A stretch of 64,000 nucleotides of DNA, taken from Marmoricola sp. OAE513 (lineage in GTDB: Bacteria > Actinomycetota > Actinomycetes > Propionibacteriales > Nocardioidaceae). Below the pieces are notes generated by a model. That model was not told the origin of the DNA, searched no databases, and saw nothing but the letters and a program-made list of their open reading frames with translations. The stretch covers positions 620,001 through 684,000 of the forward strand of contig NZ_JBEPOC010000001.1 of assembly GCF_040546585.1 (NCBI RefSeq), in the 5' to 3' direction. Both the position numbers and the translations under genes were made by a program. Shown one piece after another: positions 8,706 to 24,072 of this stretch (position 1 is its first letter; each line of letters starts with the position of its first letter).

Positions 8706-8721
8706 GAAACCAACTGGAAAC
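8706..8721 (+). promoter_or_regulatory. GlnR-like paired half-sites upstream of the nitrilase cluster
   Basis: Two GAAAC pentamers lie with exactly 6 nt between them (GAAAC-CAACTG-GAAAC), 22 nt before the amidohydrolase start. Another GAAAC is at 8653. Actinobacterial GlnR boxes are built from GaAAc and gTnAC half-sites spaced by 6 nt, so nitrogen control by GlnR is plausible. The gTnAC partners are not well matched, so confidence is limited. Confidence 0.35.
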
Positions 8722-8743: not shown

Positions 8744-9562
8744 ATGCCCATCCTCGACAGCCACCGGCACATCGGGATCCTTCCCGAGTTCCCGTTCTAC
8801 GGCGGGCCGCCCCTCCGAGCGGACCTGACGGCCCGGGCCACCGTCGCCGAGCTGATCGACGACCTCGACGCCGACGGCATCGAACGGGCGCTGGTGCTGC
8901 CCAACTACGGCGTGCCGATCCCCGAGGTCGCCTTCGAGCTGAACGACCTTGCCCTCGAGGCCGCGCAGAAGGACGACCGGATCCGCTGCGGACTCTGGGT
9001 CTCCCCGAAGGCCGCCGACGCCGAGCGCAACCGTGCCGCCCTGGAGCTGGCTTCGGAGTCCGGGGTCGCCGCACTCAAGACCAGCTTCCTGCTCGGCGGC
9101 CACCCCACCGATCCCGACTGCGCCGAGGAGCTGGAGCGGATCTTCACCACCGCCGCCGACCTCGGCCTCGTCGTGCACGTGCACACCTCGCCGGGGGCGG
9201 CCTCGGACATCGACCAGGTCGGCACCCTGGTGGACCGGTACGGCGACGCCACAAAGATCCACCTGGTCCACCTCGGCGGCGGCATGAGCGGCCACATGAA
9301 GCTGATCGGCGGACGCTTCTTCGACTGGATCGAGGCCGGCAAGCAGGTCTACACCGACACCAGCTGGACGATCGGCTTCGCGCCGACCTGGCTGGTCGCG
9401 GAGATCGAGCGCCGCGGCGTCGGCCACGACCGGGTCCTGTTCGCCACAGACGCACCCTGGGGCGACTTCGACGGCGAGTACCACCGGCTCCGCACGGCAG
9501 CCGGTGACGGCGAGCTGGCGGACGCCTTCTTCACGCGCAACTTCGAGTCCCTCTACGGCTGA
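8744..9562 (+). CDS. Amidohydrolase-2 family metal-dependent hydrolase
   Basis: This 272-residue TIM-barrel hydrolase of the amidohydrolase_2 type has the N-terminal metal motif DSHRHIG (HxH, residues 5-11), a conserved lysine region GVAALKTSF, histidines in LVVHVHTSPG and HLVHLGGG, and the catalytic-aspartate motif LFATDAPWGDF. Family members hydrolyse or decarboxylate small cyclic or carboxylated substrates. It is the first gene of the Nit1C-type operon, 64 nt before nitB, and preceded by the GlnR-like sites. It is not one of the seven canonical Nit1C genes, so it may process the product or precursor of that pathway. The substrate is unknown. Confidence 0.82.
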   Translation: MPILDSHRHIGILPEFPFYGGPPLRADLTARATVAELIDDLDADGIERALVLPNYGVPIPEVAFELNDLALEAAQKDDRIRCGLWVSPKAADAERNRAALELASESGVAALKTSFLLGGHPTDPDCAEELERIFTTAADLGLVVHVHTSPGAASDIDQVGTLVDRYGDATKIHLVHLGGGMSGHMKLIGGRFFDWIEAGKQVYTDTSWTIGFAPTWLVAEIERRGVGHDRVLFATDAPWGDFDGEYHRLRTAAGDGELADAFFTRNFESLYG

Positions 9563-9626: not shown

Positions 9627-10151
9627 ATGGCAGTGTTCGACGACGAGATCCTGGCCAACATCGCCAAGTCGCTCGGTGAGGTCCCGCACCCGAGCCTGGA
9701 GAAGGGCAGCAACCTCTACGGCTCCACCAAGATCTTCCCGGACTACCAGGCCAGCGAGGGGCAGTCCTACCTGACGTTGGTCCACGGCATCCCGCACGAG
9801 AGCTCGGTGACCTTCGTCGCTGTGCTGCAGGCGACCCGCGCTCTCCGCAAGGGCTTCGAGTCGGCGGTCTACTTCTACGGACCCGGCGCACTGGCGTGCA
9901 TGGACACCCGCGGGTTCCCCACGACCGGCGACGTCGCCTTCCCGGGCAACCAGAACCTGAACGACTCGATCAAGACGTTCATCAGCGAGGGCGGCACCGT
10001 CTTCTGCTGCCGGTTCGGCATGGCCCTGCACGGCCTGCGCGAGGAGGACCTGATCGCGGGTGTGATCCCGTCGCACCCCCTGGACGTCCAGGACGCGGTC
10101 ATCCACTTCGCCAACAAGGGCGCCATCATCAACTCCGTCTACAACCTCTGA
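9627..10151 (+). CDS. nitB: MSMEG_0572/Sll0783 family nitrogen-starvation protein (NitB)
   Basis: This 174-residue protein (ATG with AAGGAG at about 6 nt) matches the small family that heads Nit1C clusters; the Synechocystis homologue Sll0783 is known for its nitrogen-starvation response. The sequence has a DsrE-like alpha/beta character (SYLTLVHGIPHESSVTFVAVLQATRALRKGFESAVYFYGPGAL). It carries two adjacent cysteines (TVFCCRFGMALHG) that could bind metal or be catalytic. The biochemical role is not established. It is followed 10 nt later by the radical SAM gene, in the usual cluster context. Recognition rests on cluster synteny plus remembered family sequence. Confidence 0.8.
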   Translation: MAVFDDEILANIAKSLGEVPHPSLEKGSNLYGSTKIFPDYQASEGQSYLTLVHGIPHESSVTFVAVLQATRALRKGFESAVYFYGPGALACMDTRGFPTTGDVAFPGNQNLNDSIKTFISEGGTVFCCRFGMALHGLREEDLIAGVIPSHPLDVQDAVIHFANKGAIINSVYNL

Positions 10152-10161
10152 GGGCCGTGCC

Positions 10162-11241
10162 GTGACCGCTCAGCCCCTCGACCGCGCGACCTCGACCCGG
10201 GTCGACGTCGCCATCCAGGGCATCCGTCTGCTCGACGCCCCGGTCTCGCGCCGCTCCGGCGCGGGGCCGAGCGACGACGGCCACGTGCTGCTCGACGGTG
10301 TCGGTGCTGCGATCCCCCTCAACCCGCGCAGCCCGTACTCGGTGCGCGGTGGGAAGCTCCTGCTCGACGGTGCCGACACCGGGATGGGCGTCGAGGCGGT
10401 GGCCCGCCCCCGGTTCTACGACCTGACCACGGCAGACGGCGTCTCCTACGAGAAGATCGCGCGGCTGCACTCCAGCCACGTGCTGGCCACCACGGTGGTG
10501 CAGACCTGCGTGCGCTACGAGGAGTCGGAGCGCTGCCGGTTCTGCGCGATCGAGGAGTCCCTGAACGCGGGCTCGACGATCGCGGTCAAGTCACCGGCGC
10601 AGATCGCCGAGGTGGCGAAGGCGGCCGCCGAGCTCGACGGCGTCACCCAGATGGTGATGACCACCGGGACCTCGAACGGCCGGGACCGCGGCGCGGTGCA
10701 CCTGGCCCGCTGCGTCAGTGCGGTGCGCGAGGTGCTGCCCGACCTGCCGATCCAGGTGCAGTGCGAACCGCCCGGCGACCTCGCGGTGATCGGTGACCTG
10801 TACGACGCGGGTGCCCGGTCGATCGGCATCCACGTCGAGTCGCTCGACGACGAGGTACGACGTACCTGGATGCCCGGCAAGGGTTCGGTGCCGATGGACG
10901 AGTACCGCGCCGCGTGGCGCGAGGCCGTCCGGGTCTTCGGCCACAACCAGGTGTCGACGTACATCCTGGTCGGGCTCGGCGAGGACCCCGACGAGCTGGT
11001 CTCCGGGGTGGAGGAGCTCGTCGAGATGGGCGTCTACCCGTTCGTCGTCCCGTTCCGCCCGCTGGCGGGCACCTTGGCCACCGACGTCGACGGCGCCACC
11101 GCGCCCGACCCGGCCGTGGTCAGCGACATCACCTTCCGGGTCGCCCGGCTGCTGCGCGCAGCCGGGATGGCCGGGTCCGACCAGAAGGCCGGCTGCGCCG
11201 CGTGCGGCGCCTGCTCCGGCCTGTCGTGCGAAGGAGCCTGA
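10162..11241 (+). CDS. nitD: MSMEG_0568 family radical SAM protein (NitD)
   Basis: This 359-residue radical SAM enzyme has non-canonical cluster cysteines C116-x8-C125-x2-C128 (CVRYEESERCRFC), a variant typical of the Nit1C radical SAM family. The TIM-barrel continues with MVMTTGTSNGRDRGAVHL and IQVQCEPPGDLAVIGDLYDAG. The protein ends with a Cys-rich tail, GCAACGACSGLSCEGA (C-x2-C-x2-C-x4-C), which could hold an auxiliary Fe-S cluster. It starts at a GTG 10 nt after nitB and ends one nucleotide before the next ATG, so the genes are translationally linked. The reaction it performs is unknown; radical chemistry to build or cleave a nitrile-containing metabolite is inference. Confidence 0.85.
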   Translation: MTAQPLDRATSTRVDVAIQGIRLLDAPVSRRSGAGPSDDGHVLLDGVGAAIPLNPRSPYSVRGGKLLLDGADTGMGVEAVARPRFYDLTTADGVSYEKIARLHSSHVLATTVVQTCVRYEESERCRFCAIEESLNAGSTIAVKSPAQIAEVAKAAAELDGVTQMVMTTGTSNGRDRGAVHLARCVSAVREVLPDLPIQVQCEPPGDLAVIGDLYDAGARSIGIHVESLDDEVRRTWMPGKGSVPMDEYRAAWREAVRVFGHNQVSTYILVGLGEDPDELVSGVEELVEMGVYPFVVPFRPLAGTLATDVDGATAPDPAVVSDITFRVARLLRAAGMAGSDQKAGCAACGACSGLSCEGA

Positions 11242-11242
11242 G

Positions 11243-12673
11243 ATGTCCGTAGGACTGAGGGACAGCGACGTCGACGCCGTCGTCCTGCTCGGCCACCGGC
11301 CAGCCCCGGTGATCGTCGAGACCGACGACCACAGGGACCTGGCGGCGTACCGGGCGTTGCGCCGGCGCGTCTTCGTCCAGGAGCAGGGTCTCTTCCACCG
11401 CAGTGATGCCGACGACGTCGACAGCGACCCACGGACCCGGGTGCTGGTCGTGCGGGCTCCGGACGGCACCGTTCTCGGGGGCGTCCGGATCCACCCCACC
11501 ACCGGTGGCGCCGAGATCGGTCGGGACATCGGGTGGTGGCGGGGCAGCCGGCTCGTCGTCGCGCCCGGGGCGGCGCGGGGCACCGGGTCGATGCTGGTCC
11601 GCGCCGCCTGCGCGCTGGCCGAGACCGCCGGCGCGCTCCGCTTCGACGCGACCGTGCAGGAGCAGAACGAGGTCCTCTTCACCCGCCTGGGCTGGGTGCG
11701 TCGGGGCACCAACCTGGTCCAAGGGGTGCCTCATGCACTGATGGACTACCCGATCGCTCGGGTCCAGCGGCTGGCGGACGCCACCAAGGCGCCTCTGGGG
11801 GGCTTGCTTGCCGCGATCACCGCGACGCCGTACGGCGGGGGCGGACCCGGGTTCGTCGGTGACGACGCGGCTCCGGTCCCCACCGCCGAGGGCTACAGCG
11901 GACTGGTCGCCGCGTGCGACGCGATCCTGCCGTCCATGGTGGAGCGCGACCCCGAGTGGGCCGGCTGGTGCGCCGTCCTGGTCAACGTCAACGATCTCTT
12001 CGCGATGGGCGCAAGCCCGGTCGGCCTGCTCGACGCCGTCGGCGCCCGGGACGCCAGCTTCGCCCGCCGGGTGCTCGCCGGACTGACTGCCGCGGCCGAG
12101 GCCTGGGGCGTCCCGGTGCTCGGCGGGCACACGCAGCTCGGGGTCCCCGGCTCCCTGTCGGTGACGGCGCTGGGTCGCACAGACTCCCCCGTCCCCGGCG
12201 GGGGCGGTCAGGCAGGCCAGCGCCTCCGCGTCACCGCCGACCTCGGGGGTGCCTGGCGACCGGGCTACGGCGGCTCCCAGTGGGACTCCTCGAGCACCCG
12301 GACGCCGGCCGAGATGCGCGCGCTGGCCGGGGTCGTGCCCGCACTGCACCCGACAGCGGCCAAGGACGTGAGCATGTCCGGCCTCGTCGGCACGACCGGC
12401 ATGCTCGCCGAGGCGAGCGGCTGCGGTGCCGTCCTGGACGTCGCCGACGTCCCGGCACCGAGTGCGGCAGCGCCTGGGGACTGGCTGACCTGCTTCCCCG
12501 GTTTCGCGGTGGTCACCGCCGAGACGAGCGAGTCGGTCGACGCGCTCCCCGACTTCGTGACGACGGCCGTGTGCGGCGAGCTCGTCGAGGGCACCGGCGT
12601 CGGTCTTCGCTGGCCCGACGGCATCGTCACCGAAGCCGTCTCCTCCACCGTGACCGGGATGGGGGCGGCATGA
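11243..12673 (+). CDS. Fused GNAT acetyltransferase and AIR-synthase-like protein (NitE-NitF; MSMEG_0567 type)
   Basis: In this 476-residue two-domain protein, residues 1 to about 165 form a GNAT N-acetyltransferase domain (acetyl-CoA loop around RGTGSMLVRAACALAE). Residues from about 180 to 476 resemble AIR synthase/PurM-type ATP-binding enzymes (GFVGDDAAPV, VLVNVNDLFAMGASPVGLLDAVG, PVLGGHTQ). Cyanobacterial Nit1C clusters keep these as two genes (Sll0786 and Sll0787), while mycobacteria use the fused form seen here. AIR-synthase-like domains activate amides or acyl groups with ATP, so sequential acylation and ATP-dependent activation is a reasonable guess. The ATG at 11243 follows GAAGGAG. 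The stop overlaps the nitrilase start by 4 nt. Confidence 0.85.
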   Translation: MSVGLRDSDVDAVVLLGHRPAPVIVETDDHRDLAAYRALRRRVFVQEQGLFHRSDADDVDSDPRTRVLVVRAPDGTVLGGVRIHPTTGGAEIGRDIGWWRGSRLVVAPGAARGTGSMLVRAACALAETAGALRFDATVQEQNEVLFTRLGWVRRGTNLVQGVPHALMDYPIARVQRLADATKAPLGGLLAAITATPYGGGGPGFVGDDAAPVPTAEGYSGLVAACDAILPSMVERDPEWAGWCAVLVNVNDLFAMGASPVGLLDAVGARDASFARRVLAGLTAAAEAWGVPVLGGHTQLGVPGSLSVTALGRTDSPVPGGGGQAGQRLRVTADLGGAWRPGYGGSQWDSSSTRTPAEMRALAGVVPALHPTAAKDVSMSGLVGTTGMLAEASGCGAVLDVADVPAPSAAAPGDWLTCFPGFAVVTAETSESVDALPDFVTTAVCGELVEGTGVGLRWPDGIVTEAVSSTVTGMGAA

Positions 12674-13548
12674 CCACCGGATTCGCGGCGGCGGCCGGCA
12701 ACTTCGGCCGCGACGTCGAGCAGAACCTGGCCCAGGCCGCCACCTTGGTCGAGGCGGCCAAGGCGCAGGACGTCGGTCTGCTCGCCCTGCCCGAGGCCTG
12801 TCTGGGGGGTTACCTCTCGGTGCTGGGCAGCGGCCGCGACGGAACCCACGACGAGACCCCGGAGTCCCTGCCGCCGGTCCTGGACCTCGACGGGCCCGAG
12901 CTGCGCGCGCTCGCGGCGATGGCCGGTGACCTCACCGTCGTGGTGGGGTTCTGCGAGTCCGACGGCACCCACCGCTACAACACCGCCGCTGCCGTGACCG
13001 GCGACGGCGTGCTCGCGTCGTACCGCAAGGTGCACCAGCCGCTCGGAGAGAGCCTCTACTACGCCGCCGGCGAGGAGCTCCTCGCCTTCGACTCCCCGGT
13101 CGGGCGGATGGGTCTGCTGATCTGCTACGACAAGGCCTTCCCCGAGGCCGCCCGCGCCCTCGCGCTGGACGGCGCCGAGGTGATCGCCTGCATCTCCGCG
13201 TGGCCGGCGTCCCGGACGGCAACGGCCGGCCAGCTGGCGGATGACAGGTGGACGCACCGCTTCAACATCTTCGACCAGGCCCGCGGCCTGGAGAACCAGG
13301 TCGTCTGGCTGGCGGCGAACCAGACCGGCACCTTCGGCTCGCTGCGGTTCGTGGGCAACGCCAAGGTCGTCGGCCCCGGCGGCGACGTGCTCGACACGAC
13401 CGGCGTCGGCGACGGCCTGGCGATCGCCCACGTGGACGTGGCCGAGACGTTGGCGACCGCCAGGCGGGCGATGTTCCACCTCGGCGACCGCCGGCCGGAC
13501 CTGTACGAGCGGGCCGACCAGCAGGCGAGGAGCAGCAGCCGTGCCTGA
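12670..13548 (+). CDS. nitC: Nit1C-type nitrilase (NitC)
   Basis: This 292-residue member of the carbon-nitrogen hydrolase superfamily has an intact catalytic set: Glu42 (LLALPEACLGGY), Lys120 (YRKVHQP), Glu127 (PLGE) and nucleophile Cys152 (GLLICYDKAFPE). It should hydrolyse a nitrile or amide through a thioimidate/acyl-enzyme. Nit1C nitrilases have been linked to cyanide assimilation and nitrogen starvation. The ATG overlaps the previous stop by 4 nt (ATGA), and the 3' end overlaps nitG by 8 nt. It is clearly homologous along its whole length to the second, altered copy at 15131-15985, so this is the copy expected to be active. Confidence 0.9.
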   Translation: MTTGFAAAAGNFGRDVEQNLAQAATLVEAAKAQDVGLLALPEACLGGYLSVLGSGRDGTHDETPESLPPVLDLDGPELRALAAMAGDLTVVVGFCESDGTHRYNTAAAVTGDGVLASYRKVHQPLGESLYYAAGEELLAFDSPVGRMGLLICYDKAFPEAARALALDGAEVIACISAWPASRTATAGQLADDRWTHRFNIFDQARGLENQVVWLAANQTGTFGSLRFVGNAKVVGPGGDVLDTTGVGDGLAIAHVDVAETLATARRAMFHLGDRRPDLYERADQQARSSSRA

Positions 13549-13846
13549 GATGACCTTCACCGTGCGCTGGCCCGACGGGTCGGTCGAGGAGTGCTACTCC
13601 CCGAGCCTGGTGGTGCACGACCACCTCGAGGAGGGAGCGACGTACGCGGTCGAGGACTTCGTGAGCCGGACCGTGACTGCCCTCGACCTGGCCAGTGCGC
13701 GGGTGCGCGAGAAGTTCGGGTTCGCCTGCACCTCGGCCGCCGCGACCAGCGAACAGGTGGTGCGCTCGGCCGCGTTCTTCTCCCCCGACCAACCCGTCCG
13801 GGTGCTGCGGATGCACCCGCCCCTTCCACGCCAGGAGCAGTCATGA
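13541..13846 (+). CDS. nitG: MSMEG_0570 family nitrogen-starvation protein (NitG)
   Basis: This small 101-residue protein beginning (V/M)PEMTFTVRWPDGSVEECYSPS is the hallmark small gene of Nit1C clusters. It has no catalytic motif I recognise; its shape suggests an alpha/beta accessory protein, with a central basic and alanine-rich helix (RTVTALDLASARVREKFG). The GTG start at 13541 overlaps the nitrilase stop by 8 nt, and its stop overlaps the nitH ATG by 4 nt. This tight coupling suggests stoichiometric production with its neighbours. Function is unknown in the family. Confidence 0.8.
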   Translation: MPEMTFTVRWPDGSVEECYSPSLVVHDHLEEGATYAVEDFVSRTVTALDLASARVREKFGFACTSAAATSEQVVRSAAFFSPDQPVRVLRMHPPLPRQEQS

Positions 13847-15126
13847 ACGACCAACCCGAGCACAGCACCGAGGTCGTGGTCGTCGGTGGCGGCCAGGCAG
13901 GCCTCTCCACGAGCTGGTTCCTCACCCGCGACGGGGTCGACCACGTCGTCCTCGAGGCCGGGACGACCGCGCACGAGTGGGCCGACAGCCGGTGGGACAA
14001 CTTCACCCTGGTCACCCCGAACTGGCACTGCGCCCTTCCCGGGTACGCCTACGACGGTCCGGACCCGGACGGGTTCATGACCCGCGACGAGGTGGTCGCC
14101 TGGCTCGGCGGCTACGCCGCGACCTTCGGGCCGCCGGTACGCGAGCACCACACGGTCACCGAACTGGTCCCATCGGCCGACGGGGGCTACCGGCTCACCG
14201 TCACCACCCCGCAAGGCACCGAAACCTGGCACGCCGGCCAGGTGGTGGTCGCGACCGGCGGTTACCACGTACCGATCCTTCCGACCTGGGCGAGCGCGCT
14301 GGACCCGTCGATCACCCAGCTGCAGGCCGGTGAGTACCGCAACAACGACCAGCTCCCCAACGGCGCCGTCCTCGTCGTCGGGTCCGGGCAGTCCGGCGCG
14401 CAGATCGCCGAGGACCTGCACCTCGAGGGCCGCCAGGTGCACCTCGCGCTGGGCGACGCCCCGCGCGTCGCCCGCTTCTACCGTGGCCGGGACTGCATGA
14501 CCTGGCTGGCGGACATGGGGCTCTACGAGACTCCCGTGGCCAGCTACCCGGGCGGACTCGCGGCGCGGGAGAAGACCAACCACTACGTCACCGGACGGGA
14601 CGGCGGTCGCGACATCGACCTGCGCGCGTTCGCCGCCGAAGGGATGCGGCTCTACGGGATGCTCGAGTCCGGCCGCGGCACCGACCTGACCTTCCAGCCC
14701 ACGATGACGGCGGCGCTGGACTCGGCCGACGCGACGTACAACTCGATCTGCCGCGACATCGATCGCTACATCGAGCGCGCCGGGATCGACGCGCCGCCGG
14801 GAGCGGCGTACGAGCCGGTCTGGGTGCCCGAGGCGGACCCGACGTCGCTGGACCTGGTAGCCGAGGGGATCACCAGCATCGTCTGGGCGATCGGGTACCG
14901 CCCGGACTACCGCTGGGTGCGGGTCGGTGTGTTCGACGGCACCGGGCGTCCCACCCACGAACGGGGCGTGACCACGGCGCGCGGCCTGTACTTCCTCGGC
15001 CTGCCGTGGCTGCACACGTGGGGATCGGGACGCTTCCTGGGCATCGCCCGCGACGCCGAGCACGTCGCTGCGACGGCGCTGGGGCGACGGCGCAACGTCC
15101 TGGTCCCGGCTCTGGAGGCGAGCTGA
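13843..15126 (+). CDS. nitH: MSMEG_0569 family flavin-dependent oxidoreductase (NitH)
   Basis: This 427-residue flavoprotein monooxygenase-like enzyme has an N-terminal FAD motif VVVVGGGQAGLSTSWFL (residues 11-27) and a second dinucleotide motif VLVVGSGQSGAQIAEDL near 175-195. WRWxxF-like features appear as ADSRWDNFTLVTPNWHC, and a late conserved block is IVWAIGYRPDY and GLYFLGLPWLHTWGSGRFLGI. This architecture is that of class B or YUC-type N/C-oxygenating flavoenzymes that use NAD(P)H and O2. In Nit1C it would oxidise the pathway substrate, but the compound is unknown. The ATG overlaps the nitG stop (ATGA). Confidence 0.86.
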   Translation: MNDQPEHSTEVVVVGGGQAGLSTSWFLTRDGVDHVVLEAGTTAHEWADSRWDNFTLVTPNWHCALPGYAYDGPDPDGFMTRDEVVAWLGGYAATFGPPVREHHTVTELVPSADGGYRLTVTTPQGTETWHAGQVVVATGGYHVPILPTWASALDPSITQLQAGEYRNNDQLPNGAVLVVGSGQSGAQIAEDLHLEGRQVHLALGDAPRVARFYRGRDCMTWLADMGLYETPVASYPGGLAAREKTNHYVTGRDGGRDIDLRAFAAEGMRLYGMLESGRGTDLTFQPTMTAALDSADATYNSICRDIDRYIERAGIDAPPGAAYEPVWVPEADPTSLDLVAEGITSIVWAIGYRPDYRWVRVGVFDGTGRPTHERGVTTARGLYFLGLPWLHTWGSGRFLGIARDAEHVAATALGRRRNVLVPALEAS

Positions 15127-15130
15127 GCCC

Positions 15131-15985
15131 TTGGCCGCCCTGACCATCGCCGCCGTCGCCGCCAACTTCGGCCGCGACCTGGACCGGTGCGTCAACAAGA
15201 CCACGCGGATCATCTCCGACGCGCGGGACGCCGGGGTGGGCCTGCTGGTGCTCCCTCACGCCGCGCTGGGCGGCTACCTCAGCGACCTCGCGCACCCTGA
15301 TCCGCGTGCCCTGCCACCGCCGCTGTCCGAGGACTCGGCCGAGCTCGCCAAAGTAGTCCAGTGGGCCGGCGACATGGTGGTCTGCCTGGGGTTCACCGAG
15401 GTCGCCGTGACCGGCGGGCAGGCGTACACGTACAACACTGCCGTCTGCTTCAACGGCTCAGGCATCCTCGGCCGCCACCGCAAGGTGCACCAGCCGCTGG
15501 GCGAGCGCGAGGCCACCTGGCCCGGGGACCGCTTCGACGCGTTCGACACACCGGTCGGCCGGATCGGGATGCTCATCGACTACGACAAGACCTTCCCGGA
15601 GGCCGCTCGCGCCCTGGCGCTGGACGGCGCCGAGCTGGTCGCCTGCCTGAGCGCTTGGCCGGCCAGCGTCACCGACCGGGCGGACCGCCTCTCCGCGGAC
15701 CGCCAGTCCCGGTTGTTCGACATCTACGACTCGGCCCGCGCGGCCGAGAACCAGATCGTGTGGGTCTCCTCCAACCAGACGGGCTCGATGGGCGGGCTCC
15801 GGTTCCTCGGGCAGGCCAAGGTCGTGGGCCCCGGCGGTGACATCCTGGCCCGCACCCAGGGCAAGGGCGGGATGGCGGTGACCACCCTCGACGTGGCCGC
15901 CGAGGTCGCGCGGTCGCGGCGCACGCTCAGCCACCTGCGCGAAAGGGTGCCGGAGGCGTACCGAGGCACGAACCCGGTGGTCTGA
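15131..15985 (+). CDS. Nitrilase-fold paralogue lacking catalytic Cys and Glu (probable pseudoenzyme)
   Basis: This 284-residue protein aligns end to end with NitC (13 kb) and keeps the fold signatures ANFGRD, LGGYLSDL, HRKVHQPLGE and FPEAARALALDGAEL. The catalytic Glu is His43 (LPHAALGGY, codon CAC at 15257) and the nucleophilic Cys is Asp150 (LIDYDKTFPE, codon GAC at 15578). The Lys (118) and second Glu (125) remain. It should therefore be unable to form the thioimidate intermediate. The frame is intact and tightly embedded (TTG start 4 nt after nitH, stop 3 nt before the glycosyltransferase), so it is maintained as a gene rather than a decaying one. A regulatory or heteromeric partner of NitC is the simplest idea. 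Confidence 0.85.
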   Translation: MAALTIAAVAANFGRDLDRCVNKTTRIISDARDAGVGLLVLPHAALGGYLSDLAHPDPRALPPPLSEDSAELAKVVQWAGDMVVCLGFTEVAVTGGQAYTYNTAVCFNGSGILGRHRKVHQPLGEREATWPGDRFDAFDTPVGRIGMLIDYDKTFPEAARALALDGAELVACLSAWPASVTDRADRLSADRQSRLFDIYDSARAAENQIVWVSSNQTGSMGGLRFLGQAKVVGPGGDILARTQGKGGMAVTTLDVAAEVARSRRTLSHLRERVPEAYRGTNPVV

Positions 15986-15988
15986 GAC

Positions 15989-17140
15989 GTGCGGATCGCG
16001 CTGCTCACCTACTCGACCAAGCCGCGCGGCGGCGTGGTGCACACGCTCGCGCTGGCCGAGGCACTCGCCGCGCTCGGCGAGGAGGTGCACGTCTGGACCT
16101 TGGCGCGCGGCGGTGACACCACCTTCTTCAGGCCGGTCGCGCCGGCTGTGAGCGTGCACCCCGTGCCGTTCCCCGACGTGGCCGACGAGGACGTCGGTAC
16201 CCGGATCGTCCGCTCGATCGCGGCCCTGCGGACGGCCTTCGAGGCCGCTCGGGACGTCTACGACGTCGTGCACGCCCAGGACTGCATCAGCGCGAACGCC
16301 GCGATGCCGTGCATCCGCACCATCCACCACCTCGACACCTTCACCACCCCGGAGCTCGCGGCCTGCCACGAGCGAGCGGTCGTGGAGCCGACCGATCGGA
16401 TCTGCGTGTCTGCTGCCGTGGCGGCCGAGGTCGAGGCCGGCTGGGGCCTGACCCCCACGGTCATCCCGAACGGCGTCGACGCCCACCGGTTCGTCGCGGG
16501 GGCCCGCGACGTGGCCGGACGCGAGACGTGGCGTCGGCGGCTGGGCACCTACGTCCTGGCGCTGGGAGGCATCGAGCCGCGCAAGGGCAGCATCGACCTG
16601 CTCGAGGCGATGGCCCTGGTCCAGCAGGAACGCCCCGGGACCCGCCTGGTGCTGGCCGGCGGCGAGACGTTGTTCGACTACCGCGACTACCGACGCGCCT
16701 TCGAAAGCCGGGCCGCCGAGCTCGGCGTCGACCTCGAGGTGCTCGGCGGCATCGACGACGCCGCCCTGCCGACTCTCGTCGCCGAGGCGAGCGCGCTCGG
16801 GTTCGTCTCCACCAAGGAGGGGTTTGGGCTGGCCGCGATGGAGGCGCTCGCCGCGGGGGTTCCGGTGGTGGCGCGCGACCTCCCTGTCCTGCGCGAGGTC
16901 TTCGGTTCCACGGTCACCTACGCCCGGGACGTGCCGTCGATCGCGCAGGCGCTCGACGGTGTCCTGGGCGGCACCCACGATCCGGGACCAGGGCGTGCGC
17001 TCGCTGCGACGTACAGCTGGACGGCCGCTGCCACTGCCCACCAGCGGTTCTATGCCGGGCGCCGCGAACGCCTACCCAATTCCCCAGATCCAAACGTCCT
17101 GAGCGGGTTTGATTCCTCCGCGCAGACCCGCAAGGGTTGA
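15989..17140 (+). CDS. MSMEG_0565 family GT4-type glycosyltransferase
   Basis: This 383-residue GT-B retaining glycosyltransferase begins MRIALLTYSTKPRGGVVHTL, the hallmark of the glycosyltransferase found in mycobacterial Nit1C clusters. It has the GT4 nucleotide-sugar motif EGFGLAAMEALAAGVPVVA (E-x7-E) near residues 273-291 and the linker motif VIPNGVDAHRF. It probably transfers a sugar from a nucleotide donor to the product of the nitrilase/radical SAM pathway, or to a carrier. The GTG start lies 3 nt after the altered nitrilase, and glgE begins 3 nt after its stop, so it bridges the Nit1C and GlgE gene sets on what is probably one transcript. Confidence 0.85.
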   Translation: MRIALLTYSTKPRGGVVHTLALAEALAALGEEVHVWTLARGGDTTFFRPVAPAVSVHPVPFPDVADEDVGTRIVRSIAALRTAFEAARDVYDVVHAQDCISANAAMPCIRTIHHLDTFTTPELAACHERAVVEPTDRICVSAAVAAEVEAGWGLTPTVIPNGVDAHRFVAGARDVAGRETWRRRLGTYVLALGGIEPRKGSIDLLEAMALVQQERPGTRLVLAGGETLFDYRDYRRAFESRAAELGVDLEVLGGIDDAALPTLVAEASALGFVSTKEGFGLAAMEALAAGVPVVARDLPVLREVFGSTVTYARDVPSIAQALDGVLGGTHDPGPGRALAATYSWTAAATAHQRFYAGRRERLPNSPDPNVLSGFDSSAQTRKG

Positions 17141-17143
17141 GCC

Positions 17144-19126
17144 ATGGTGGGACGGATCCCGGTACTGGACGTGACGCCCGTGGTCGAGCACGGGCGCTAT
17201 CCCGCCAAGTCCGTGGTCGGTGAGTCGTTCCCCGTCACCGCCCTGGTCTTCCGCGAGGGGCACGACCTGCTCGGCGCCGACGTCGTGCTGACCGATCCCG
17301 CCGGGGTGCGGCGGGCACCGGTGCGGCTCACGCCGGTCGCCGGGGACGTCGACCGCTGGGGCGCGGAGGTGAGCGCGGACCAGGTCGGCGCGTGGTCCTT
17401 CACGATCCAGTCCTGGAGCGACCCGTTGTCGACCTGGCTGCACGACGCCGGCATCAAGATCCGCGCCGAGGTCGACGTCGAGCTGATGTTCGCCGAGGGA
17501 GCCGCCCTGCTCGAGCGCTGGGCCCGGGAGGTCGAGGCGCCGAAGGCCGCCCGTACGGTCGCGGCCGACACCCTCAGGGCACTGACCGACACGAGCCGTC
17601 CCGTCGAGGCCCGGCTGGCCGCTGCGGAGAGTCCGGCGGTCGACGAGCTGTTCACGGCGTACCCGCTCCGCGACCTGCTGACCTCCGAGGGCCCCTACCC
17701 GCTCTTCGTGTCCCGCGAACGCGCGCTGAACAGCGCTTGGTACGAGTTCTTCCCGCGCTCAGAGGGGGCCACCGAGGCAGCCGACGGGACCCGCACCAGT
17801 GGCACGTTCAAGACGGCGATCCACCGCCTCGAGGCGGTCGCGGCGATGGGCTTCGACGTGCTCTACCTGCCCCCGATCCACCCGATCGGCGAGGTCAACC
17901 GCAAGGGCCGCAACAACACCCTGACGCCCGGGCCGACCGACGTCGGCTCGCCCTGGGCGATCGGCTCCAAGGCCGGCGGGCACGACAAGATCCACCCCGA
18001 CCTCGGGACGCTCAAGGACTTCGACGCCTTCGTGAAGAAGGCGGGCTCGCTCGGCCTCGAGGTCGCGCTGGACCTCGCGCTCCAGGCTGCTCCCGACCAC
18101 CCCTGGGTCAAGAAGCACCAGGAGTGGTTCACCACCCGCGTCGACGGATCGATCGCGTACGCCGAGAACCCGCCGAAGAAGTACCAGGACATCTACCCGA
18201 TCAACTTCGACAACGACCCCGAGGGCATCTACGCCGAGGTGCTCCGCGTCGTCCGGCACTGGATGAAGCACGGCGTCCGGATCTTCCGCGTCGACAACCC
18301 GCACACGAAGCCGCTCGCGTTCTGGGAGCGCCTGCTCGGAGAGCTGCGCGAGACCGACCCGGACGTGCTGTTCCTCGCCGAGGCGTTCACGAAGCCACCG
18401 ATGATGCAGGCGCTGGCCAAGATCGGCTTCCACCAGAGCTACACCTACTTCACCTGGCGCAACCACAAGGCCGAGATCGAGGACTACCTGCGCGAGGTGT
18501 CCGCCACGTCGGCGCACTACTTCCGACCGAACTTCTGGCCCAACACCCCCGACATCCTGCACGAGTACCTGCAGCACGGCGGGCCGGCCGCGTTCCGGAT
18601 CCGGGCCACGCTCGCCGCCACCGGCTCCCCCAGCTGGGGCGTGTACGCCGGGTTCGAGCTGTGCGAGCGGATGGCGGTCCGGCCCGGGAGCGAGGAGTAC
18701 CTGGACTCGGAGAAGTACGAGATCAAGGTGCGCGACTGGGCGGGCGCCGAGGCCGAGGGGCGGTCGTTGGCCCCTTACCTGACCCGGCTCAACGAGCTGC
18801 GCCGTCACCATCGGGCGCTGCAGCGGCTGCGTGGCCTGACCGTGCACCGCAGCGACAACGAGAACGTCTTGGTCTTCAGCCGGACCGTCCCGGCCGGCTC
18901 GGCGACCGCGAGCGACAGCGTGATCGTGGTGCTGACGCTCGACCCGCACTCCCCGCAGGAGACGATGGTGCACCTCGACCTCGCCGCCCTGGGTGTCCCG
19001 GACGACGCCGTCGTCGAGGTGCACGACGAGCTCACCGGCCAGACCTGGTCGTGGGGCACCGACAACTACGTCCGCCTCGACCCGTCCGTCGAGGTGGCCC
19101 ACATCCTGACCGTGAGGACCGCGTGA
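17144..19126 (+). CDS. glgE: Alpha-1,4-glucan:maltose-1-phosphate maltosyltransferase
   Basis: This 660-residue GH13_3 enzyme elongates alpha-1,4-glucan with maltose-1-phosphate. Catalytic residues are visible as Asp384 ([10 protein letters not shown], nucleophile), Glu413 ([11 protein letters not shown], acid/base) and Asp470 (PNTPDIL, stabiliser). Their spacing equals that reported for Streptomyces GlgE (394/423/480). The N-terminal region ([24 protein letters not shown]) is the usual GlgE beta-sandwich and S-domain. The ATG lies 3 nt after the preceding stop. Together with TreS, Mak and GlgB downstream it forms the complete GlgE pathway converting trehalose to branched alpha-glucan in the cytoplasm. 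Confidence 0.96.
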
Positions 19127-20856
19127 CCGAACCCGCCATCCATGCCACTGCTACCGCCAGCGCGACCGTTCTCGGCGACGAGCCGGAGTGGTTCAAGACA
19201 GCCGTCTTCTACGAGGTGCTGGTGCGCTCGTTCAAGGACTCCGACGGTGACGGCGTCGGCGACTTCCGCGGGCTGACGGAGAAGCTCGACTACTTGCAGT
19301 GGCTCGGTGTCGACTGCCTGTGGGTCCCGCCGTTCTTCACCTCCCCGCTGCGCGACGGCGGGTACGACGTCGCCGACTACACCAACATCCTCCCCGAGTG
19401 CGGCACCGTCGAGGACTTCCACGCGTTCCTCGACGCCGCGCACGCCCGCGGCATCCGCGTGATCATCGACTTCGTCATGAACCACACCTCGGACGCGCAC
19501 CCGTGGTTCCAGGCGAGCCGGTCGGACCCGGACGGCGAGTTCGGCGACTTCTACGTCTGGTCCGACACCGACCAGCTCTACGAGGACGCACGGATCATCT
19601 TCGTCGACACCGAACCGTCGAACTGGACCTGGGACCCGGTCCGCGGCCAGTACTTCTGGCACCGGTTCTTCTCCCACCAGCCCGACCTGAACTTCGACAA
19701 CCCGAAGGTCCTGCAGGCGATGCTCGACGCGATGGCGTTCTGGCTCGACATGGGCCTCGACGGGTTCCGCCTCGACGCCGTGCCGTACCTCTTCGAGCGT
19801 CCCGGGACCAACGGCGAGAACCTGCCCGAGACGCACGAGGCGCTCAAGCAGGTCCGGCGCTTCGTCGACGAGAACTACCCGGGCACGGTGCTGCTGTGCG
19901 AGGCCAATCAGTGGCCGAGCGACGTTGTCGAGTACTTCGGGGACCCAGAGGTGGGTGGCGACGAGTGCCACATGGCGTTCCACTTCCCGGTGATGCCCCG
20001 CATCTTCATGGCGGTGCGACGCGAGTCCCGGTTCCCGATCTCCGAGATCATGGAGCAGACGCCCGCCATCCCGGCCAACTGCCAGTGGGGCATCTTCCTG
20101 CGCAACCACGACGAGCTCACCCTCGAGATGGTGACCGACGAGGACCGCGACTACATGTGGTCGGAGTACGCCCAGGACCCGCGGATGAAGGCGAACATCG
20201 GCATCCGTCGCCGGCTCGCGCCGCTGCTGGACAACGACACCAACCGGATGGAGCTGTTCACGGCTCTCCTGCTCTCCCTGCCCGGGTCCCCCGTCCTGTA
20301 CTACGGGGACGAGATCGGGATGGGCGACAACATCTGGCTCGGTGACCGTGACGGCGTACGCACCCCGATGCAGTGGTCCTCGGACCGCAACGGCGGGTTC
20401 TCCTCGGCCACGCCGGGCAAGCTGCACCTGCCCGCGGTTCAAGATCCCGTTTACGGGTACCAGTCGGTCAACGTGGAAGCCGAACTCGACAACTCCTCCT
20501 CGCTTCTGCACTGGACGCGGAAGATGATCCACACCCGCAAGCAGCACCCCAGCTTCGGGCTGGGCGACTTCAGCGACCTGGGCGGCACCAATCCCTCGGT
20601 GCTCTCCTACGTGCGGGAGCACGCCTGGGTCGACGAGGACGGTCTGTCGCACCGCGACACGGTCCTCTGCGTGAACAACTTGTCCCGCTTCCCCCAACCG
20701 GTCGAGCTCGACCTGCGCCGGTGGGAGGGCGTGACGCCCGTCGAGCTCCTCGGCGGGGTCCGATTCCCCCAGGTCGGGGAGCTCCCCTACCTGCTGACCC
20801 TCGGCGGGTACGGCTTCTACTGGATCCGCCTCCCGGAGGTTGCCGATGACGCCTGA
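19123..20856 (+). CDS. treS: Trehalose synthase (maltose alpha-D-glucosyltransferase)
   Basis: This 577-residue GH13 enzyme interconverts trehalose and maltose. It has the family opening [22 protein letters not shown], the nucleophile region [27 protein letters not shown], the acid/base region [18 protein letters not shown] and the stabilising Asp in [11 protein letters not shown]. The GTG at 19123 overlaps the glgE stop by 4 nt (GTGA). The reading frame stays open far upstream through glgE, but that part has no homology and is a GC-rich shadow. TreS commonly assembles with maltokinase, encoded directly downstream, which channels maltose to maltose-1-phosphate. Confidence 0.96.
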
Positions 20857-22198
20857 CCAGATCGCCGCCTACATCGCCGACGCCCGCTGGTTCGGCGGGA
20901 AGGGGCGCGCCTTCGAGGTCACCGCGGTGACCGAGCTGGTGCTCGCCCCGGGCGTCAGCACGAACCTGGTCCGGCTGTCCTACGCCGATGGTGGCACCGA
21001 CCTCTACCAGATCCCGCTGTCGTCGTACGACGAGCCGCAGGAGCGGTTGGCGCACGCCGCCATCGGGATCTGGGACGACCGCCACCACTACGACGCCGTC
21101 CACGACCGCGACGCCATGCAGGTCTGGCTGGAGGCCTTCGCCGGCGCTCCCAGCGACGAGCTCGACGAGCACGTCTCGTTCACCCGTACCTCCGAGCACG
21201 AGCTCGACCGGGAGACCCACTCGACGCCGTTGTCGGGCGAGCAGTCGAACTCCTCGCTCGCGTTCGGTGACGACGCCCTGCTCAAGGTCTTCCGGCGGCT
21301 CGAACCCGGCACCAACCCGGACATCGAGATCCACGAGGTGCTCACCGCGGCGGAGAGCACCCACATCGCCGCCCTCCACGGGCACGTCGTCGCCGACGTG
21401 CCCGACCTCGGTCGGATCGACCTCGCGATGCTGCAGCAGTTCTTGCGCACCGCCAGCGACGGCTGGGAGCTCGCCCTGGCCAGCGTCCGCAACCTGGTCA
21501 TGGAGACCGACCTGCTGCCCGAGGAGTCCGGCGGCGACTTCGCCGCCGAGGCCCACCGGCTCGGCGCCGGACTGGCCGAGATCCACGACGTCCTCCAGGA
21601 TTCGTTCGGCACCGGCACCGCTGACGGCGCCTACCTCGCGGACCAGATGCAGACCCGGCTCGACGAGGCCGCGCAGGTCGTTCCCGAGCTCGGGGAGATG
21701 CGCTTCGCGTTGACCTCGAGCTTCGACGCGATCCGTGCCCTCGGCGCTCTCGACGTGCAACGGATCCACGGGGACCTCCACCTCGGCCAGACCCTGCGCA
21801 CCTCGCTCGGCTGGAAGTTCGTCGACTTCGAGGGCGAGCCCGCCAAGAGCCTGGAGGAGCGGCGGCTCCCTGACTCGACGTGGCGCGACGTCGCCGGCAT
21901 GGTCCGGTCCTTCGACTACGCCGCATCCACCGTCAGCCGCGACCTCGGCGGAGCCCAGGAGGAGGCTGCCGAGATCACGCACCGCGCCGAGTCCTGGACC
22001 GCGCACACGACAGCCGCCTTCCTCGCCGGGTACGCCGAGCAGCGCGGCGAGCCGATGAGCGACGCCGAGGGGGCGCTGCTGCGCGCGTACATCGCGGACA
22101 AGGCGATCTACGAGGCGGTCTACGAGACGCGCAACCGACCGAGCTGGGTCGGCATCCCGCTGCTGGCGCTCAGCGGCATCGTCGGGAGCGCAGCATGA
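20846..22198 (+). CDS. mak: Maltokinase
   Basis: This 450-residue kinase phosphorylates maltose with ATP to maltose-1-phosphate for GlgE. The N-terminal cap [21 protein letters not shown] is typical of Mak/Pep2. The C-terminal lobe carries the aminoglycoside-phosphotransferase-like catalytic loop [13 protein letters not shown] and the metal-binding [15 protein letters not shown]. The ATG at 20846 follows GGAGG at 6 nt and overlaps treS by 11 nt. In many mycobacteria this domain lies beside or fused to TreS; here it is a separate gene of normal length. Confidence 0.94.
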
Positions 22199-24072
22199 CC
22201 GCGCCGAAGAGCACGCCCGCACAGGCGCCCGAGCTGGGCGACCTGGACCTGTACCTGATCGGCGAGGGCCGTCACCACCGCCTCTGGGAGGCGCTCGGCG
22301 CGCACCCGTACGACGGCGGCACCCGGTTCGCGGTGTGGGCGCCGAACGCCCGCGAGGTCCGCCTCGTCGGCGACTTCAACGGCTGGGACCGGGCCACGAT
22401 GCCGATGGCCCGGCGCGACGGCTCCGGGATCTGGGAGCTCGACGTCACCGGCGCCCGGCCAGGGGCCCGCTACAAGTACGTCGTCGCCGGTGCCGACGGC
22501 GTCTGGACCGACCGCGCCGACCCGATGGCCGTGCACACGGCTGTCCCGCCCGAGACGCACTCGGTCATCTACTCCTCCCGGCACACCTGGTCCGACGACG
22601 CCTGGATGAAGGCGCGCACTGACCGTCCGGACCAGGCTCCGATGTCGGTCTACGAGGTGCACCTCGGGTCCTGGCGCAAGGGCCTGTCCTACGACGACCT
22701 CGCCGAGCAGCTGACGGCGTACGTGGTGGAGACGGGGTTCACCCACGTCGAGCTGCTGCCCGTCATGGAGCACCCCTACGGCGGCTCCTGGGGCTACCAG
22801 GTGACCTCTTACTACGCCCCGACGTCCCGCTTCGGTGACCCCGACGGCCTGCGTCGGTTGATCGACCGGCTGCACCAGGCCGGCATCGGCGTGATCCTGG
22901 ACTGGGTCCCGGCGCACTTCCCGAAGGACGAGTTCGCGCTGGCCCGGTTCGACGGGACGCCGCTCTACGAGGACCCGAACCCGACCCGCGGCGAGCACCC
23001 CGAGTGGGGCACGCTCGTCTTCGACTTCGGGCGTCTCGAGGTCCGCAACTTTCTGATCGCCAACGCGCTGTACTGGCTCGAGGAGTTCCACGTCGACGGT
23101 CTGCGCGTGGACGCGGTCGCCTCGATGCTCTACCTGGACTACTCCCGCCCGGACGGCCAGTGGACCCCCAACGTGCACGGAGGTCGCGAGAACCTCGAGG
23201 CCGTCGCGTTCCTGCAGGAGCTCAACGTCGCCGTCGGCGCCCAGGTGCCCGGCGCGACGGTCATCGCCGAGGAGTCCACCTCGTGGCCGGGCGTCACCGC
23301 GCGCGTCGACGCCGACGGACTCGGCTTCGGCTTCAAGTGGAACATGGGCTGGATGCACGACTCGTTGGCCTACATCTCCCAGGACCCGATGTACCGGTCG
23401 CACCACCACGACCAGCTGACCTTCAGCCTGGCCTACGCGTTCTCCGAGCAGTACGTGCTCCCGATCAGCCACGACGAGGTCGTGCACGGCAAGGGCTCCC
23501 TGCTGCGCAAGATGCCGGGCGACCGCTGGAAGCAGTTCGCCGGCGTACGGTCCTTCCTCGCCTACCAGTGGGCGCACCCGGGCAAGCAGCTGCTCTTCAT
23601 GGGTAGCGAGTTCGCGCAGGACAACGAGTGGGCCGAGGCCGGCGAGCTGGACTGGTGGCTGCTCGACCAGGCCGAGCACCGCGGCGTGCTGGACCTCGTG
23701 GGTGACCTCAACCGCCGGTACGCCGGCACCCCCGCCCTCTGGACCCAGGACGCCGTCGGCCACGGGTTCACCTGGCTGGCGGCGGGCGACGCAAGCAGCA
23801 ACGTGATCGCGTTCGTCCGCTGGGGCACCGGCGGCGAGGCGCTGGTCTGCATCTGCAACTTCTCCGGCCGCCCGCACGAGCAGTACCGCGTGCCGCTCCC
23901 CTTCGCCGGAGTCTGGGACGAGGTGCTCAACACCGACGCCGAGACGTACGGCGGCTCCGGCGTCGGCAACCTCGGCAGCGTCACCGCCGTTGACCAGCCG
24001 TACGGCGACCAGCCCGCGAGCGCGACGCTGCGACTGCCTCCGCTGGGAACGCTCTGGCTCGCACCGCACTAG
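22195..24072 (+). CDS. glgB: 1,4-alpha-glucan branching enzyme
   Basis: This 625-residue GH13/CBM48 enzyme introduces alpha-1,6 branches. The N-terminal CBM48 domain is recognisable from [24 protein letters not shown] (around residues 42-65). The catalytic barrel contains [19 protein letters not shown] (nucleophile Asp), [13 protein letters not shown] (Glu) and [15 protein letters not shown] (Asp). It lacks the extra N-terminal domain found in longer GlgB forms. The ATG overlaps the mak stop by 4 nt, closing the glgE-treS-mak-glgB operon. Confidence 0.95.

Follow-up and report, generated by a model that had tools for sequence, protein, structure and literature searches.

What does a protein with a nitrilase fold do when it carries Asp and His at the sites of the nucleophilic Cys and the catalytic Glu? 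The question is raised by the gene at 15131–15985 of a 64,000-nucleotide stretch of Marmoricola sp. OAE513 (the window hereafter), which shares its cluster with a paralogue that keeps the usual residues. The two proteins are called NitX and NitC. A first-pass annotation of the same DNA had described NitX as a selected pseudoenzyme inside an intact Nit1C cluster. The elements of the locus, with the evidence for each in parentheses, are the following.

8706–8721, plus strand: GlnR-box-like GAAAC-N6-GAAAC upstream of the cluster (pattern match)
8744–9562, plus strand: amidohydrolase, part of the cluster in many relatives (Amidohydro_2)
9627–10151, plus strand: MSMEG_0572/Sll0783 family protein (TIGR04044)
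10162–11241, plus strand: MSMEG_0568 family radical SAM protein (TIGR04043)
11243–12673, plus strand: MSMEG_0567 family fusion of GNAT and AIR-synthase-like parts (TIGR04045, TIGR04050)
12670–13548, plus strand: NitC, intact nitrilase-superfamily paralogue with Glu42, Lys120 and Cys152 (alignments, family models)
13556–13846, plus strand: MSMEG_0570 family protein (TIGR04042)
13849–15126, plus strand: MSMEG_0569 family flavoprotein (NitH), 4 nt upstream of NitX (TIGR04046)
15131–15985, plus strand: NitX, nitrilase-fold protein with Asp150 and His43 at the Cys and Glu sites (Pfam, AlphaFold, orthologue alignment)
15257–15259, plus strand: His43 codon at the catalytic-Glu site; orthologues carry Asp, His, Gly or Tyr here and none carries Glu (orthologue and 1j31 alignments)
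15482–15484, plus strand: Lys118 codon, catalytic Lys, kept in 127/127 (orthologue and 1j31 alignments)
15503–15505, plus strand: Glu125 codon, second active-site Glu, kept in 126/127 (orthologue alignment)
15578–15580, plus strand: Asp150 codon at the nucleophilic-Cys site, Asp in 127/127 (codon rows, orthologue alignment)
15701–15751, plus strand: helix 191–207, likely α6 of the dimer (A) surface, with four of the nine positions fixed differently in NitX and NitC (predicted structure; A surface according to the available part of PMC4981594)
15989–17140, plus strand: MSMEG_0565 family glycosyltransferase, 3 nt downstream of NitX (TIGR04047)

The NitX gene is an open frame of 284 amino acids with a TTG start. 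The flavoprotein frame runs to 15126 and that of the glycosyltransferase begins at 15989, and these coordinates confirm the unfragmented frame and the 4-nt and 3-nt spacings noted earlier. NitX matches the Pfam domain CN_hydrolase (PF00795, 1.4e-30), scores under the cut-off of every NCBIfam model that it matches, and is 50% identical to NitC over 280 columns. Its AlphaFold prediction (pLDDT 92.4) superimposes best on 6ypa_D (Z 35.1, rmsd 1.6, 255 residues aligned; by its title, 6ypa is a C146A variant) and on 1j31_A (Z 34.8); across 6ypa, 1j31, 6lei and 5h8i, Z lies between 33.6 and 35.1 over 253–278 residues. With a CN_hydrolase domain and a predicted α-β-β-α fold, NitX belongs by homology and modelled fold to the nitrilase superfamily.

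In the pairwise alignment, His43 of NitX is opposite Glu42 of NitC and Asp150 is opposite Cys152, with Lys118 and Glu125 kept. His43, Lys118 and Asp150 align also with a Glu, a Lys and a Cys in the solved structure of the amidase PH0642 (1j31), three residues that we take to be the catalytic triad of that enzyme, and Glu125 pairs with a Glu in the 1j31/NitC alignment as well. The four residue assignments made from the window are thereby upheld. Residue 150 is Asp in all 127 distinct NitX sequences (139 loci), a count in which the class-sample NitX rows were chosen by the Asp motif itself and in which the 80 contig loci (the best 80 of 522 relatives from a scan of genome contigs, all with actinobacterial titles) are biased towards Asp, since the scan ran on two peptide patterns, one including the Asp. 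Residue 150 could be read for 31 of the 33 NitX of the class sample (NitC in genomes with two matches being mostly assigned by score); for the genus sample, 20/20 genomes yielded NitX residues and 10/20 those of NitC. Lys118 is retained throughout the 127 sequences and Glu125 in 126, the remaining one having Asp. Position 43 never has Glu: 109 of the sequences carry Asp there, 9 His, 7 Gly and 2 Tyr. Because position 43 varies and position 150 is invariant, the conserved trait of NitX is Asp150 alone, with His43 as a minority variant.

The first-pass annotation had asked whether a His/Asp pair is conserved and under purifying selection. The invariance of Asp150 and the selection (see below) agree with it; the pair as a unit has to be given up, with His43 in only 9/127. 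It had also named what would speak against it, namely relatives with Cys and Glu at these sites and OAE513 alone altered; the sequences turned out the opposite way. The NitC rows of the same clusters have Glu/Lys/Cys in 79/79, as do the NitC of 16/16 clusters without NitX and 6/6 deep rows.

An E-K-C-E site is stated to be common to all nitrilase-superfamily members (PMC4700190, in the part available). In NitX, the Cys and the first Glu of that site are gone in 127/127, so that NitX lacks the site of a catalytic member of the superfamily. NitX resembles the E-K-C-E amidases (NitC, N-carbamoylputrescine amidase, the PH0642 amidase and D-carbamoylase) in fold, CN_hydrolase domain, Lys and second Glu; it differs from them in the replacement of the nucleophilic Cys by Asp in all orthologues read and in the loss of the first Glu. 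NitX stands for a widespread clade that breaks the E-K-C-E rule and is retained under selection.

The Asp150 codon is GAC or GAT in 97/97 NitX codon rows and the NitC Cys codon is TGC or TGT in 87/87 NitC rows (both counts exclude one sequence, the NitX of L007 and the NitC of L094, with a stop within the tblastn-extended stretch). Therefore at least two base changes separate the two residues, as had been remarked from the window. When columns 43 and 150 are taken out, a quick tree of 276 rows (139 Asp, 137 Cys) has a branch (SH-aLRT 97) that separates all Asp rows from all others, and a single Cys/Asp change suffices. This tree took in all NitX, NitC, deep and outgroup rows, 96 of them from genome searches (50 Asp, 46 Cys), and the trait columns were dropped against the circularity of selecting by Asp. 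A mixture-model tree of 70 rows, with the same two columns removed, gives 97/97 for 32 NitX rows and one change, and a quick tree of 194 rows, in which all columns are kept, gives a support of 96; outgroup branches in the trees are long and the position of the root is uncertain. The deep Cys rows L116, L118, L121 and L126 slightly favour NitX over NitC as a tblastn query, yet they lie outside the Asp clade.

In the 70-row tree, the proteins closest to NitX that keep Glu/Lys/Cys belong to other lineages of the phylum (L116, L117, L119, L126), and the two with surroundings examined (L198, L197) sit outside any cluster. This suggests that the thiol was lost from a NitX line that had until then been an intact enzyme. 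In some ancestor belonging to the Actinomycetota, a single replacement of Cys by Asp would have deprived a duplicated enzyme of the nitrilase superfamily of its thiol nucleophile, and the protein would since have been kept as part of a nitrogen-starvation cluster.

Nei–Gojobori dN/dS for the 40 closest pairs is 0.05–0.26 in NitX and 0.02–0.22 in NitC; the two proteins have medians of 0.34 and 0.41 and maxima of 0.62 and 0.80, respectively, over all 3491 pairs, which are non-independent and in many cases high in dS. NitX is thus under purifying selection. Positions conserved at 95% or above number 113 in NitX and 98 in NitC (plus 4 shared gap columns), a count done on NitX columns and therefore leaning towards NitX. 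NitX is a conserved homologue under selection with catalytic residues missing, as the term pseudoenzyme implies. The selected pseudoenzyme of the first-pass annotation is well supported by the clade-wide Asp150, the single change in the tree, the purifying selection and the conserved linkage described below. NitX has probably lost normal nitrilase chemistry and would still be needed for something. In a literature search of partial coverage, nothing was found that describes a pseudoenzyme (a dead nitrilase) in the nitrilase superfamily.

Seven models score over their cut-offs in the window (TIGR04042, TIGR04043, TIGR04044, TIGR04045, TIGR04046, TIGR04047 and TIGR04050), all in accessory genes. 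Against TIGR04048 (cut-off 502.6 bits), the model of the Nit6803/Nit1C nitrilase, NitC reaches 36.0 bits and NitX 26.1, which rules out the canonical Nit1C nitrilase as an identity for either; NitC comes near the models for N-carbamoylputrescine amidase and archaeal nitrilase without reaching their cut-offs. In a phylum sample of 396 genomes, 29 have a TIGR04048 match at 1e-60 or better (the OAE513 genome is not among them) and none passes the cut-off, the best scoring 484.3 bits (G218). The intact Nit1C cluster claimed earlier is therefore right for its accessory genes, which match the MSMEG_0565–0572 families and are those expected of Nit1C, and wrong for its nitrilase, which is not of subfamily 1 (the Nit6803 type). 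Because the accessory genes pass their models and both nitrilases fail TIGR04048, the OAE513 cluster is best read as an actinobacterial Nit1C-like variant with a different hydrolase.

A GAAAC-N6-GAAAC sequence, presumably a GlnR box by its consensus, lies at 8706–8721, 22 nt before the first cluster gene. The looser pattern G[AT]NAC-N6-G[AT]NAC is matched in 23/62 orthologous upstream regions versus about 1% of letter-shuffled ones. The Amidohydro_2 protein (8744–9562) precedes the cluster in many actinobacterial loci and was not found at L071, L089, L102 and L105.

As far as the available part of Podar et al. (2005) (PMC1199592) describes it, Nit1C likewise has the radical SAM, GNAT, AIR-synthase-like, small-protein, flavoprotein and Sll0783-type genes together. 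OAE513 differs from it in having no nitrilase over the TIGR04048 cut-off and in having two CN-hydrolase paralogues and a glycosyltransferase, with an amidohydrolase often present in such clusters. A second comparison is with the gpr operon (MSMEG_0565–0572) of Mycobacterium smegmatis, described in PMC6039565 (available in part). Read from MSMEG_0572 to MSMEG_0565, its order is that of genome G131, where the genes, pieced together, run nitA, nitC, nitH, radical SAM, GNAT-AIR, nitX, glycosyltransferase; the order in OAE513 is different. In other genomes of the genus of G131, nitG lies between nitC and nitH, and 19 further members show GNAT-AIR, NitX and the glycosyltransferase in that order. The protein of G131 in the slot of MSMEG_0566 is an Asp150 NitX. 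By gene order alone, via this genus, MSMEG_0566 matches what would be the NitX counterpart.

According to the same paper (PMC6039565, available part), the gpr operon is GlnR-dependent and needed for peroxide resistance under nitrogen starvation, the individual genes behind this resistance could not be identified, and MSMEG_0566 is called a putative aliphatic amidase with a possible role in nitrogen assimilation. Two transcriptome papers, seen in part (PMC4222082, PMC4617892), likewise name MSMEG_0566 an aliphatic amidase and list it as induced by nitrogen starvation or limitation. The residues found at this slot in related genomes argue against aliphatic-amidase chemistry, and NitX would offer a testable lead into an operon of peroxide resistance and nitrogen starvation.

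Among 58 genomes searched (that of the window and relatives), 8 besides that of the window have a close orthologue at 61–84% identity together with a second, NitC-like match. A class-wide profile search of 394 genomes gave 49 with a match: 32 with both proteins, one with NitX alone and 16 with NitC alone, 15 of these 16 belonging to one family. Hence NitC occurs in 32/33 NitX genomes and NitX is missing from 16/48 NitC genomes, so that the two are not inseparable. An orphan Asp-form NitX at L180 (9842–10702) has no cluster genes in 18 kb, and its genome gives no NitC match at 1e-60; it adjoins an aldose-1-epimerase-like frame (named by eye). Matches were found in 20 of the 148 genomes of the G131 genus, each time two. 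In the phylum sample, the radical SAM gene (TIGR04043) is present in 28/396 genomes; a match like NitC or NitX occurs in only 8 of these and the Asp form in 5. NitX thus belongs to only some of the actinobacterial clusters and is no general component of Nit1C-like clusters.

The linkage of nitX was read in the best 80 of the 522 relatives, with ten window genes searched. A NitC match of at least 250 aa is present at 76/80 of these loci; the other four are short contigs or contig ends (L059, L065, L077) and a locus with NitC in three pieces (L110). L001–L006 and L009 show no NitC because these loci span only about 3.8 kb. The next gene upstream of nitX is nitH at 42/80 loci and nitC at 32/80, and the next downstream is the glycosyltransferase gene at 75/80, the most constant neighbour. 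Of the 31 junctions measured with nitC directly upstream of nitX, 15 show the two genes overlapping by 4 nt.

Nine positions are fixed differently between NitX and NitC. Helices α5 and α6, located by predicted secondary structure and by their place after the nucleophile, hold six of these nine (150, 154, 192, 195, 199, 205) versus 14/66 of the shared fixed ones (Fisher p 0.009, falling to 0.023 in significance when position 150 is left out, in a test framed after the positions were known). In the available parts of PMC4700190 and PMC4981594, superfamily dimers form across the A surface, made of α5 and α6. In NitC, α6 position 199 is Tyr in 10/16 NitX-less rows versus 2/97 paired ones and position 192 is Ser in 4/16 versus 0/97, differences confounded by ancestry (15 of the 16 are from one family), with one out-of-cluster row (L197) counted among the 97 paired.

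The reading that we put first, and hold with about even confidence, is that NitX is a retained pseudo-nitrilase whose pocket has been rebuilt and which probably serves NitC as a structural or regulatory partner. Thiol-based hydrolysis of amides or nitriles would be impossible for it, its rebuilt Asp/Lys/Glu pocket may still bind a ligand, and it would act as a non-classical subunit that pairs with NitC, or regulates it, through the α5/α6 dimer surface, thereby tuning the output of the cluster when nitrogen is short. Linkage, gene overlap and the divergence of α5/α6 make NitC a plausible partner. A plasmid-borne module with both paralogues, described below, also speaks for this reading. The partnership is weakened because NitC manages without NitX in 16/48 genomes and because nitC is not the most constant neighbour of nitX.

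Because Asp150, Lys118 and Glu125 are near-invariant, the pocket itself would matter, and the main rival is thus a reaction based on Asp: NitX would be an active enzyme with the carboxylate of Asp150 as nucleophile or general base and a substrate beyond a simple amide, Lys118 holding the oxyanion and Glu125 handling water and protons. An Asp nucleophile needs no Glu, so that position 43 would be free to vary. We regard this as possible though unlikely. Such conservation goes beyond the needs of a purely structural pseudoenzyme, and further residues, such as Arg183, are fixed in NitX and unfixed in NitC or, such as Thr154, fixed differently; yet position 43 varies as far as Gly and Tyr, NitX is absent from a third of the NitC genomes, and an Asp nucleophile is not known in the nitrilase superfamily, nor did a literature search of partial coverage find a paper on one. 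That NitX founds a class of nitrilase-fold enzymes, with an Asp/Lys/Glu site and a different reaction on a metabolite of the nitrogen-starvation cluster, is a proposal that we view with real doubt.

NitX could also be a homodimeric ligand sensor or scaffold for the glycosyltransferase or the flavoprotein, without NitC, which we consider improbable. The two genes are its commonest direct neighbours downstream and upstream in the 80 loci, and in 14 of the 16 NitX-less NitC loci the MSMEG_0569-type flavoprotein was not found either (L188 and L192 among these being incomplete). However, the glycosyltransferase gene is kept in all 16, and the flavoprotein occurs without Asp-type NitX at L181 and L190 and in the deep clusters L118 and L121. 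A decaying duplicate or a sequencing artefact, to which the loss of two of three triad residues and the absence of the gene from some lineages could point, has a negligible chance, since independent genomes agree on Asp (127/127) in open frames, with dN/dS well below 1 and fixed sites about as many as in NitC or more, and both a sequencing error and a pseudogene are ruled out.

Several observations on the surroundings may be added. In clusters that lack NitX, the nitH/nitX slot between nitC and the glycosyltransferase gene can hold a different protein, FAD-binding and about 530 aa long, as at L183 (9018–10613); a frame similar to it, by eye, starts at about 9480 of L184. Next to the out-of-cluster sister enzymes with Glu/Lys/Cys (L197, L198), genes match asparagine synthase, transglutaminase and phosphoribulokinase/uridine kinase, with no clear function. 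In the window, the glycosyltransferase gene is directly followed (17144–24072) by GlgE-like, TreS-like, maltokinase-like and branching-enzyme-like genes, named by eye, with the look of glucan metabolism. On plasmid pLP1 of Rhodococcus qingshengii (L200, 1–11404), two copies of one IS3 transposase flank a NitC and NitX module, in which the Asp-form protein is annotated only as a carbon-nitrogen hydrolase family protein; the arrangement resembles a composite transposon and the plasmid is typed as mobilizable.
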